DNA of 64,000 nt from an uncultured Bacteroidia bacterium. GTDB lineage: Bacteria > Bacteroidota > Bacteroidia > Bacteroidales > UBA932. Below, one piece after another: positions 52,253-56,962 of this stretch. A program made the position numbers and the translations under genes. Where the stretch lies: contig CACXPG010000001.1 of NCBI GenBank assembly GCA_902769525.1, forward strand, positions 62,001 through 126,000, written 5' to 3'. Within the stretch, counting starts at the first letter, position 1, and each line of letters starts with the position of its first letter. The notes under the pieces are model-generated. The model saw only the letters and a list, made by a program, of their open reading frames with translations, was not told the DNA's origin and made no database searches.

Positions 52253-53518
52253 ATGGCATATTTATTTACATCAGAATCAGTGTCTGAAGGACATCCAGAC
52301 AAAGTTGCGGACCAGATTTCAGACGCTATACTCGACCAATTCCTGATCCAGGACCCTAACAGCAAGGTTGCCTGCGAGACATTCGTCTCCACAGGCCTTG
52401 TGGTAATCGGCGGAGAAGTCCGCTCGGAAGCTTATGTTGACATCCAGCAGACAGCGCGAAACGTCATCAACCGCATCGGCTACACCAAGGCCGAGTACAA
52501 GTTCGACGCCAGCAGCTGCGGCATCCTTTCAGCCCTTCACGAACAGAGCGACGACATCAACCGCGGAGTGGACCGCAAGAATGAAGAAGACCAGGGAGCC
52601 GGCGACCAGGGCATAATGTTCGGCTATGCCTGCCGCGAGACAGAAGACCTTATGCCTCTGCCTATATGGCTGAGCCACAAGATTCTGGTCACTCTCGCCG
52701 ATATCCGCAAGAATACCAAGCTGATGCCTTATCTCAGGCCTGACGCCAAGAGCCAGTTCACCATCGAATATTCAGATGACAGAAAGCCAATAAGGGTTCA
52801 CACCATCGTTCTTTCCACCCAGCACGACGAGTTCGGCAAGGACAGCCAGATGCTGAAGAAAATCAAGGAAGACGTCCAGAACATCGTCATCCCGAGGATG
52901 CTCAAGAACATGCCTGAGAACATCAAGAAGCTCTTTGCCAAAGGCTACAAGCTCTATGTAAACCCAACCGGAAAGTTCGTAATCGGCGGCCCTCACGGAG
53001 ATACCGGTCTGACCGGAAGGAAGATCATCGTCGATACCTATGGCGGAAGAGGAGCCCATGGCGGCGGAGCCCTCAGCGGAAAAGACCCGAGCAAGGTGGA
53101 CCGCAGCGCGGCCTACGCCGGAAGATACATCGCAAAGAACCTGGTTGCAGCAGGAGTTGCAGATGAAGTCCAGATCCAGATCTCATACGCCATCGGAGTG
53201 GCAAGGCCTCTGAGCATTTTCATAAACACCTTCGGCACTACCAAGGCAAAGAAAAACGGCAAGACTCTGACAAACGGCCAGATCGCCGAGGCTGTCGGAA
53301 AAATATTCGATCTGCGCCCTGCCAAGATTATCGAGAAATTCGGTCTGAAGAACCCTATCTACGAGCCGTGCGCCGCTTATGGGCACATGGGAAGAAAGCC
53401 TTATACAAAGGAGGTTACGCTTCTGCGCGATGGAAAGAAGATTCGGAAGAAACTTCAGTTCTTCGGCTGGGAGCTGACAGACTCAGTAGATAAGATACGC
53501 AAGTACTTCAACCAGTAA
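52253..53518 (+). CDS. metK: S-adenosylmethionine synthetase
   Basis: Protein of 421 residues from the ATG at 52253 ([20 protein letters not shown]), the standard MetK opening; the longer upstream frame is the riboswitch leader. It has ATP/Met-binding motifs [12 protein letters not shown] and [20 protein letters not shown]. It makes SAM from Met and ATP. A basic insert [16 protein letters not shown] region and a slightly long C-terminus explain the length over the 385 of E. coli. No neighbour shares the pathway in the window. Confidence 0.98.
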
Positions 53519-53527
53519 CCGGCAGGT

Positions 53528-54400
53528 CTACAAACCTCCCTTGTCAGGACCGTTAGTGCTCTCCTTGGTCTTCGGCGATCCAGCCATAATTCTGACGGAA
53601 GGATTGACTTCTGATCTGAACTGAAAGCCATAACCGCCATTGTTAACGTTACTTTGGCGGTATATGTTGTTTGCCCGGTAAACAGGATTAGATGAACTCC
53701 TGTAATATTGTGGGTTAGGCCTCATTTTGCTGCCGTTTGAATAGAACGGCAACGATATGTAACAGATAGCGTCACAAGGCTGCCCGTCTTCTAGGCTATA
53801 TGCCGGAACAACTCGTTTCAAAGGATTGCGTCCAGCTTTTTCAGCGGCCTGTACAGCTGCACTATCAAGAACCGGATATCCAGAAGACTTTACCACTTTG
53901 ATATCGCGGAGCCTGTTATCCGCACCCATTACACAACTTAAGGTCACCATCCCCTGATGTCCAGCCTTCCTTTCTGAAGACGGATATTTCAGATACTTGT
54001 TGAAAGACCTGTAGAGATACCCGTCCACAACAGATCCGCTTTTGGACATTATTGGAACCATTCTTTTCAACGGATGGACCTTATTCTTGATTCCGTCCAG
54101 GCCTTTTGCATCGTACAGGGCTTTGAGATTCTTCCGGCTGAGCACATTGTATGCAAAAGCAATCTTTCCCATCTCCAGAAGTTTCTCTTTGTCTCCTTCG
54201 GTCTTGGACGGATGGTATTTCTTGAGCTGCCTGACATAAGCACGCCACATCTTTTCTGGCAAAGCCTTCTTCTTTACGCCCAAGATCTGATACAGAGTCC
54301 TTGTTTCCCCGGCCATAAGGCTATCAACCGCAGTATTGTCTTGTGCATGAATGATGGAGGCTGCCAGCACAAAGGCCAAAAACATTAACAGTCTCTTCAT
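53528..54400 (-). CDS. Exported J-domain-like / TonB C-terminal domain fusion
   Basis: Protein of 290 residues. Signal peptide 1-20 (cleaved after IHA). Residues 35-103 look like a DnaJ domain: LYQILGVKKKALPEK for helix I, RAYVRQLKKYHPSKTEGDKE for helix II and loop, and AYNVLSRKNLKALYDAKGLDG for helices III-IV. The catalytic HPD is HPS (Asp to Ser65), so Hsp70 stimulation is not expected, and the periplasm has no known Hsp70. Residues about 128-215 match a TonB C-terminal domain (GMVTLSCVMGADNRLRDIKV, YPVLDSAAVQAAEKA). No TonB membrane anchor other than the signal is seen. The function is unknown. Confidence 0.75.
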   Translation of the reverse strand: MKRLLMFLAFVLAASIIHAQDNTAVDSLMAGETRTLYQILGVKKKALPEKMWRAYVRQLKKYHPSKTEGDKEKLLEMGKIAFAYNVLSRKNLKALYDAKGLDGIKNKVHPLKRMVPIMSKSGSVVDGYLYRSFNKYLKYPSSERKAGHQGMVTLSCVMGADNRLRDIKVVKSSGYPVLDSAAVQAAEKAGRNPLKRVVPAYSLEDGQPCDAICYISLPFYSNGSKMRPNPQYYRSSSNPVYRANNIYRQSNVNNGGYGFQFRSEVNPSVRIMAGSPKTKESTNGPDKGGL

Positions 54401-54425
54401 AAAGCAATATTATTTAGTGTCGGTG

Positions 54426-54458
54426 TAAAGTTATGATTTTTTTTTATTTATACAAAAT
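54426..54458 (-). promoter_or_regulatory. Promoter of the J-domain-like/TonB gene
   Basis: On the minus strand TTTG (54455-54458), 21 nt, then TAACTTTA (54426-54433), which differs from consensus only in the last base. Predicted leader of about 20 nt. It overlaps the end of mutS2. Confidence 0.55.
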
Positions 54459-56962
54459 CAACCAAGGGTTACAACGGTGATTCCGGCTCCACCCAGACGG
54501 ACATCTTCGTCTGCGCAACTTTTAACTGCCGGATTTGTCTTGAGCCATTTCCGGATCTCCTCCTTGAGGACTCCGGTGCCCTTGCCGTGGAGTATTCTCA
54601 CCGTTGAAGCACCCACAAGGGTTGCATCGTCGATAAATTTCGATACACTCATAAGGGCTTCCTCCAGCCTCTGGCCTCTTATGTCTATCTCGTCCTTGAA
54701 AGAAAGCTTGCGCTTTGAGATGCTCTCGTCTATGTTCACGCTGTAATTCCTCAGCGATGCTGCCGGTTTCGCTCCGGCCTGGCTCTGGAACTCCTTGTTG
54801 GAGATTACAGTCACGGAGTCTTTCTTCACGCGGCTGGTGATGTCTCCAACGGAGATGGTGACATTCTTGCCCTCGATCTTGATGACTTCCCCTATCAGGC
54901 CGCTGCCCTGTACCTTGACCTTGCAGCCCGGCTCAAGCTTGAGGACTTTCGGCTCTTCAGCTTTTGGCTGAGGCTGCTGCTTTTCTCTTCTGGCCTTTCT
55001 TTCTTCCCTTCTGGCCTGGCGTTCCTGGAGAGACTTCATCTTGGCCTCGATCTTCCTGTCCTGGTCGGTGTCCGGTTTGTTCTCTATCTTCTCTCCGGCA
55101 TCCTTGAGGGCCTGGCGGGCTTTCTTGGTGGCCTCCTTCTCCGCCTGGGCTTCCTTGATTTTCTTGATGGTGGACTCAACCTTCCTGTTGGCCTCGGCGA
55201 TGATCTGTCTCGCCTCCTCCTTGGCCTGCTCGATTATCTGCTTCTTGGTCTGGCGGATATCTGAAAGTTCCTTGGAATACTTCTCGGTGACACTCTCCAG
55301 AGTCTTGTCCGTATTGCGGATACGGGCCAGCTTATCTTCCAGTTTCCTGCGGTTTTTGGAAATCGTGCGGAGCTGTTTTTCAAGGTCTATGAAATCTTCT
55401 CCGGCCTTCTCCTCGGCTTTCTTGACGATATGCTCCGGAAGGCCCATCTTCCTTGCCAGGTCAAAGGCGAAGGAATTGCCCGGAACCCCTATCTCCAGCT
55501 TGTACAGAGGGGCGATGTTCACGCTGTCGAAGAGCATCGCGCCGTTGACAACACCCTTGCTTCCCTCTGCATAGACTTTCAGGTTTGTGTAATGGGTGGT
55601 AATAACTCCGTAGGTTCCCCTTTCCTCAAGCTCCTCGAGAATTGTCTGGGCGATAGCGCCCCCGGCCGCAGGCTCGGTTCCGCTTCCGAACTCGTCTATC
55701 AGGACCAGCGTACGGTCCGAAGCGGCCTTGAGCAGGTTCCTCATGTTCAAAAGATGGGAACTGTAGGTGGAAAGGTCGTTCTCCATGCTCTGCTGGTCGC
55801 CGATGTCTATCAAGATGTTGTCGAATACAGGAAATTCGCTCTTCTGGCTGCAGGAAGATGGCATTCCCCACTGGAACATATACTGAAGCATGCCTACGGT
55901 CTTCAGCGCCACGGACTTTCCGCCAGCGTTCGGACCGGAGATCACGAGTATATGCCTGTCGCGTGTAAGAGTCAGGTCTATCGGGACTATCTTCTTGCCT
56001 TCCCTCTGAAGAGCAGACTCCAGAAGCGGATGCCTTCCCTCGTAAATCCTCAGCGACCCGTCCTCCGAGACGACAGGTTTCCCCGCTCTCATCTGGTGGG
56101 CGCACTCAGCCTTGGAACGGATAAAATCCACCTCCCCGATAAACCTTGCGCCGTCCATCAGTTCCGGAATATAAGGGCGCAGAAAATCGGTGAACTCCAT
56201 AAGAATCCTGGCAACCTCCCTCTGGTGGTCGAACATCAGGCGGCGGATCTTGTTGTTGAGCTCCACCACTTCCATCGGCTCGATGAAAAAAGTCTTGCCG
56301 GAGGCGGAAGCGTCCTGGACAATGCCCGGAAGACTCCTCTTGCTGGTAGCGTTCACGGGTATGAGCATCTTGCCGTCACGGACGGAAATGGTAGCGTCCT
56401 CGTCCGTTATGTTGTCCGCCTTGGCCTTTTTAAGCAAAGACTCGATTCTCCGGCTGACAGAGGCCTGGGCCTGGCGAAGTTCGGAGGATATTCTGTGAAG
56501 TTCCGCAGAAGCGGTATCCTTTACAAATCCGTTCTTGTCCAGAATGTTGCCTATCTTGGTATTAACCGCCGGAAAATACTGGACCGGAAGAGCCAGGGCC
56601 TTCAGGAACGGATATTTCTCTTCCTTGGTTCCGCTCAGAAAAGAAGTCACGGCTCTGAGGTTCCCCATAAAATCGGCGAGCCGCTTCATGTTTTCAACGG
56701 AAATGGCGCTGCTTTCCTTTTTCAGGCCAGGGAGAAATCCCGTGCAGTCCGTAAAGCCCCCCTGCGGGAACTTGCTTTCCATCACGCTGATTTCCATCAT
56801 CTCCTCCACAAGCGAGAGCCGCCGGGAAATTTCCACAGCATCAGAGGAAACGGTTTCATCTTCTGCCCTTTGAGCGCCATAAGCCGTTGAGCAGCGGCCC
56901 TTGACTTTCTCCCTGACGAAGCTGAAGCCTATCTTGTGTTCCAGTTGTTGTGTATCTTGCAT
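54458..56962 (-). CDS. mutS2: MutS2 ATPase/nuclease
   Basis: Protein of 834 residues. No mismatch-binding domain, but the MutS core with clamp and lever helices, Walker A GPNAGGKS (about 341-348), Walker B LVLIDEFGSGTEP, a long charged coiled coil (about 520-690), and a C-terminal Smr nuclease domain with IDIRGQRLEEALM and ILHGKGTGVL. MutS2 suppresses homologous recombination and in some bacteria rescues collided ribosomes. It is 51 nt after the hisJ-like gene and probably cotranscribed. Confidence 0.95.
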   Translation of the reverse strand: MQDTQQLEHKIGFSFVREKVKGRCSTAYGAQRAEDETVSSDAVEISRRLSLVEEMMEISVMESKFPQGGFTDCTGFLPGLKKESSAISVENMKRLADFMGNLRAVTSFLSGTKEEKYPFLKALALPVQYFPAVNTKIGNILDKNGFVKDTASAELHRISSELRQAQASVSRRIESLLKKAKADNITDEDATISVRDGKMLIPVNATSKRSLPGIVQDASASGKTFFIEPMEVVELNNKIRRLMFDHQREVARILMEFTDFLRPYIPELMDGARFIGEVDFIRSKAECAHQMRAGKPVVSEDGSLRIYEGRHPLLESALQREGKKIVPIDLTLTRDRHILVISGPNAGGKSVALKTVGMLQYMFQWGMPSSCSQKSEFPVFDNILIDIGDQQSMENDLSTYSSHLLNMRNLLKAASDRTLVLIDEFGSGTEPAAGGAIAQTILEELEERGTYGVITTHYTNLKVYAEGSKGVVNGAMLFDSVNIAPLYKLEIGVPGNSFAFDLARKMGLPEHIVKKAEEKAGEDFIDLEKQLRTISKNRRKLEDKLARIRNTDKTLESVTEKYSKELSDIRQTKKQIIEQAKEEARQIIAEANRKVESTIKKIKEAQAEKEATKKARQALKDAGEKIENKPDTDQDRKIEAKMKSLQERQARREERKARREKQQPQPKAEEPKVLKLEPGCKVKVQGSGLIGEVIKIEGKNVTISVGDITSRVKKDSVTVISNKEFQSQAGAKPAASLRNYSVNIDESISKRKLSFKDEIDIRGQRLEEALMSVSKFIDDATLVGASTVRILHGKGTGVLKEEIRKWLKTNPAVKSCADEDVRLGGAGITVVTLG

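Follow-up and report, generated by a model that had tools for sequence, protein, structure and literature searches.

A mobile protein of one Bacteroidales genus that joins a J fold lacking the Hsp70-triggering aspartate to a TonB-type domain

The window (the whole 64,000-nucleotide stretch of DNA analyzed here) encodes a mobile protein of two domains, seen in a single genus, in which a J fold without the aspartate that triggers Hsp70 is followed by a TonB-type domain. J domains are the textbook triggers of Hsp70; to our knowledge the periplasm contains no ATP, and we know of no Hsp70 there. The gene is a minus-strand open reading frame with its ATG at 54400 and a stop codon ending at 53528, encoding 290 amino acids; its start is well fixed, as the frame extends just three codons further upstream (293 amino acids). 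The features of the gene and its surroundings are as follows.

53528..54400, minus strand: entire 290-aa reading frame, with signal peptide, pseudo-J domain, TonB C-terminal domain and low-complexity tail (orthologues and a paralogue compared)
54344..54400, minus strand: Sec signal peptide, residues 1-19, MKRLLMFLAFVLAASIIHA followed by Q, no lipobox cysteine (from sequence; Ala-Gln at the cleavage point in 6/6 members)
54092..54304, minus strand: J-like domain, residues 33-103 (Pfam DnaJ, 48.3 bits; AF2 model)
54206..54214, minus strand: HPS in place of HPD, residues 63-65 (Asp absent in 6/6 members)
53996..54091, minus strand: linker between J-like domain and TonB_C, residues 104-135 (family comparison)
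53744..53995, minus strand: TonB C-terminal domain, residues 136-219 (Pfam TonB_C, TIGR01352, Foldseek)
53531..53743, minus strand: fast-evolving tail rich in Tyr, Asn, Ser, Gly and Pro, residues 220-290 (pLDDT 26-33 over most of it)
54427..54456, minus strand: promoter-like site of the Bacteroidota type, TTTG-N19-TAACTTT (motif match)
53150..54800, no strand: recent homologous-exchange tract comprising the metK 3' end, the J/TonB_C gene and the mutS2 3' end (98-100% nucleotide identity to G028)

At the level of sequence, the exported J-like/TonB_C fusion claimed in the initial annotation is confirmed as real and lies far beyond chance. Using hmmscan, the Pfam DnaJ model (PF00226) matched residues 36-97 with 48.3 bits against a cut-off of 27.8 (1.1e-12), and the TonB_C model (PF03544) matched residues 136-193 with 48.4 bits against a cut-off of 24.6 (1.3e-12); as both matches are well over the curated cut-offs, chance resemblance to the two families was rejected. 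The best PDB sequence matches were the J domains of E. coli DnaJ, to which the alignment is ungapped and reads HPD as HPS. An AF2 model built from the window protein and a 99% copy alone was poor (mean pLDDT 42.6), but nonetheless placed helices at residues 33-40, 49-62, 68-86 and 89-98, with TonB-like strands and a helix later in the chain. In a second AF2 job, for which 35 J-domain rows taken from the fetched loci were added to the alignment, the J segment reached a pLDDT of about 68-92 by block, and Foldseek matched it to the J domain of DnaJ in complex with DnaK (5nro_B; TM 0.89, rmsd 1.3 A), as well as to radial-spoke J-protein chains (8j07, 7jtk). The J fold that had been anticipated, with four helices and the II-III hairpin, is thus present in this model, which the canonical J domains among the added rows bias toward such a fold; evidence independent of the model comes from the sequence match.

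The TonB part is also matched by TIGR01352 (TonB family; 52.2 bits, over cut-off) and, in Foldseek, by the H. pylori TonB-CTD (probability 0.99). The Pfam match ends at profile position 59 of 79 and a longer loop precedes the last strand, so that binding to TonB boxes may be altered. While the protein resembles TonB in that its C-terminal domain is significant to both PF03544 and TIGR01352, it differs in bearing a J-like domain and in its amino-terminal layout: by eye, the h-region is short, an Ala-Gln cleavage site follows (a retained transmembrane anchor is not expected), and no Pro-rich, periplasm-spanning stretch separates the signal peptide from TonB_C. Lacking both anchor and spacer, it cannot couple to ExbB/ExbD in the manner of TonB or transmit proton-motive force itself, and we rejected a role as a TonB energy transducer.

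Judged by eye, residues 1-19 form a typical-looking Sec signal peptide that ends in HA before Q and has no lipobox, and all six members of the family share the MK start, the hydrophobic core and A-Q at the cleavage point. Because this signal peptide looks cleavable and no further hydrophobic anchor was noticed, we strongly infer that the protein is exported by Sec and released as a soluble periplasmic protein. Exported J domains occur in eukaryotes, in ER-lumen DnaJ proteins such as ERdj5; an exported J domain is therefore unusual for bacteria, not in general.

The HPD motif is absent from the family, its position reading HPS, HPS, HPS, YPA, YPS and HPL in the six members. The initial annotation had looked to loss of Asp or conservation of Ser among orthologues; Asp is indeed lost in all six, whereas the residue in its place is not always Ser (S, S, S, A, S, L), and His is also gone in two. 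A regular-expression scan of the fetched loci, which misses the more diverged members, found that the J domains of cytoplasmic proteins keep HPD: it stood in 60 of the 62 distinct contexts, and the two exceptions were the window gene and its near-copy. The J core itself is invariant across the family at L36, Y37, V42, L74, A83, L87, Y96 and D97, and the signal peptide is conserved alongside it. Residues R22, K26, R27, D35 and K48 are among those through which DnaJ contacts DnaK (PMC8215388); in the five distinct sequences of the family, D35 is never kept, R22 is kept once, as a basic residue, K26 and K48 are each kept in three and R27 in four. By this comparison the positive patch is eroded and partly lost, not wiped out, and weak Hsp70-like binding by the J segment is possible.

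A recognizable J domain with non-conservative replacement of HPD defines type IV (pseudo) J proteins (PMC13254874), and the protein described here belongs among them. It is like Pam16/Tim16, DNAJB13 and RSP16 in its clear J fold, in its non-conservative replacement of HPD (HPL in DNAJB13 and DKE/DKS in Pam16; PMC13254874) and in an apparent use for binding, but those proteins are eukaryotic and belong to mitochondria or axonemes, whereas this one is bacterial, exported and fused to TonB_C. With DnaJ, CbpA and DjlA (classes A-C) it shares the J fold, and its best sequence matches are to DnaJ; unlike them it is exported, has lost the Asp of HPD and has no G/F region, zinc domain or C-terminal substrate-binding domains. 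The main survey of bacterial J proteins is reportedly that of Barriot et al. 2020. We found no paper on the J/TonB_C pair in the open-access literature, although the architecture may have been listed earlier.

Six genes in five genomes, among 39 genomes of one Bacteroidales genus, encode the architecture of signal peptide, J-like domain and TonB_C, and all six products match both Pfam models at E <= 0.1; the more distant members are about 23-39% identical. The initial annotation called for a search for the domain pair in other Bacteroidota; the pair is not widespread there but was confined to a single genus, among whose genomes it moves. Wider searches, over partly shared sets of 399 family, 393 order and 395 phylum genomes, scored a capped number of candidates per genome, so that remote relatives may escape, and at the thresholds applied none of the matches listed from outside the genus was a family member. 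The sole order-level match above threshold (G301) was to the J domain only, in a 404-aa frame. When viral contigs were scanned with the family, J and TonB_C matches were separate and never fused, and plasmids gave J-only matches. A near-identical copy lies in a public yak-rumen Bacteroidales MAG record, JAGCXV010000069.1, which is probably the same as G028:C35. The J hits G004:C11 and G033:C195 (same genus) and G025:C16 were set aside as non-relatives, having an intact HPD and no signal peptide.

Our tentative reading, the most economical one and possible though far from assured, is that the protein serves as an accessory, soluble periplasmic adaptor with the pseudo-J domain as a binding module. 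For such an adaptor we infer two partners. TonB_C would dock on one or more TonB-dependent outer-membrane transporters, at the TonB box or on the plug side, or else on TonB itself; soluble TonB freed of its anchor does bind TonB boxes (PMC5413942, PMC11658791). The helical hairpin of the pseudo-J domain would bind a second protein, as the inactive J domain of Pam16 binds that of Pam18, a precedent for a J domain used in binding (PMC13254874). The protein might then modulate, compete with or scaffold TonB-dependent transport rather than energize it. An extended form of this proposal, in which a bacterial J fold outside the cytoplasm and apart from Hsp70 acts as a mobile accessory adaptor of TonB transporters that tunes or blocks uptake, including that of phages or bacteriocins, we regard as unlikely.

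Somewhat unlikely, but the strongest competitor to the adaptor reading, is that the J-like segment is a spacer or chance-captured remnant, the working unit being an exported TonB_C with its tail, as in relatives that have no J domain. A TonB_C-tail profile detected many such proteins in the same genus (175-206 aa: signal peptide, TonB_C and short tail); their assignment depends on this profile, as Pfam TonB_C by itself scores them below its cut-off. They are like the window protein in their signal peptide, related TonB_C and short Tyr/Asn-rich tail, and some lie at the alr-adjacent hotspot that the J/TonB_C family also uses, but they have no J module. In a TonB_C tree the J-bearing proteins grouped together, except for a long-branched copy from G003, and one J-less protein (G031) stood beside them; a single origin of the fusion was not rejected (p-AU 0.22), nor is it established, given the long branch. 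Against a mere remnant, the J core is invariant in spite of the low identity among members, and constraint on the J segment is similar to that on TonB_C. Between G004 and G017, whose proteins are 67% identical, identity was 73% over the J segment and 67% over TonB_C, and dN/dS (NG86; one pair, hence rough) was 0.26 in the J segment, 0.22 in TonB_C and 0.32 in the tail. The J module is thus maintained about as strictly as TonB_C. Retention of the module without its Hsp70 trigger fits a repurposed binding domain, the role suggested in the initial annotation.

A recent review regards it as an enigma whether J proteins without HPD are accidents or were selected (2026; PMC13254874). The present family may offer a natural test of the idea that binding alone is enough for a J fold to persist, as every member has lost the trigger and the module is nevertheless under purifying selection, in a compartment deduced from the signal peptide.

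The gene has been inserted between metK and mutS2, the position that it occupies in G000, G028, G004 and G017; in the related species G003, G011, G021, G027, G031, G032, G033 and G036 the gene is absent from this site and metK and mutS2 abut directly. In G028 a second copy lies between alr and a holA-like gene, and in G003 the copy lies behind rplQ. Every copy is on the same strand as the preceding gene and convergent to the next. A tract of ~1.65 kb, at about 53150-54800, is 98-100% identical in nucleotides to another species (G028; L039), with flanks of only 52-93%, indicating that the gene moved recently; the tract is best explained, from these identities, by exchange through homologous recombination in the flanking gene ends. 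The TTTG-N19-TAACTTT motif upstream has three matches in the window against 1.76 expected, which is weak alone; its two boxes are at the equivalent place in G004 and G017.

This mobility bears on a quite unlikely explanation, in which the protein would be a TonB-box decoy: a soluble TonB_C competing with TonB and so protecting against TonB-dependent bacteriocins or phages, whence its accessory, mobile and fast-evolving nature. An exchange tract centered on the gene, patchy presence at three different sites, and same-site copies only 34-35% identical in species whose MutS2 is 90-92% identical would all suit a decoy, and soluble TonB fragments without the membrane anchor still bind TonB boxes (PMC5413942, PMC11658791). 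However, the neighborhood consists of housekeeping genes, not defense genes, and a decoy would neither need nor explain the J module.

That the J domain works despite HPS, recruiting Hsp70 either in the cytoplasm after failed export or through a periplasmic Hsp70 not yet known, is very improbable. Its fold and part of its positive patch are retained, and a designed analogue of the J domain can stimulate Hsc70 even though it lacks HPD (cited in PMC13254874); in natural J domains, however, a D-to-N change alone abolishes Hsp70 stimulation (PMC13254874, PMC8215388), and here both the loss of Asp and the signal peptide extend to all members. PF00012 matched one DnaK without a signal peptide and MreB only, so no Hsp70 was found in the compartment of the J domain, an absence that is not absolute in a genome 92% complete. 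The lone cytoplasmic-type DnaK and the effect of D-to-N make co-chaperone action very unlikely, and a cytoplasmic co-chaperone was rejected. More remote still is a decaying gene or binning artefact, for although the copies have low mutual identity and the assemblies are drafts, six genes have intact frames, dN/dS between G004 and G017 is well below 1 (a dead gene was rejected largely on this ground), and the same insertion site recurs in the assemblies of four species and in JAGCXV010000069.1 (probably G028:C35 itself).

With so many exported J-less TonB_C proteins in the genus, the J/TonB_C fusion represents one variant in a set that is expanding. Elsewhere in this genome TonB_C forms the C-terminal end of exported proteins that are M28-like, M56-like (both names assigned by eye) or lipoprotein-like, besides the small stand-alone form, so that the domain is one added to many exported Bacteroidota proteins and not just that of an energy transducer; the J fusion adds to this picture. 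The M28 peptidase-like protein with a C-terminal TonB_C is at L143:1468-2820.

The small J-less proteins are often paired, and several lie in islands with lipoproteins, Flg_new_2 proteins and a Wzy_C protein. Tandem or expanded loci were seen at L257:2258-2791, L258:2789-4030, L260:2816-4016, L061:1336-2447 and L262:1707-2948. A 175-aa exported TonB_C protein is near-identical at different places in G000, G028 and G032 (L258:2789-3316, L262:1707-2234 and L270:1984-2511), and its G032 copy adjoins an IS30-type-looking transposase, suggesting recent mobility. In islands with a Wzy_C, O-antigen-ligase-like protein, the lipoprotein or exported proteins at L258:1514-2776 and 181-687, L262:100-774 and L265:2797-3372 carry 'TKGGGG', Cys-rich zinc-ribbon-like stretches and an InlB-B-repeat-like (Flg_new_2) end; most of them bear no family name. 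Separately, two genomes of the genus encode coiled-coil-like proteins without a signal peptide that have an internal J domain with intact HPD (L104:3320-4156 and L105:3435-4280), each adjoined by a short conserved protein.
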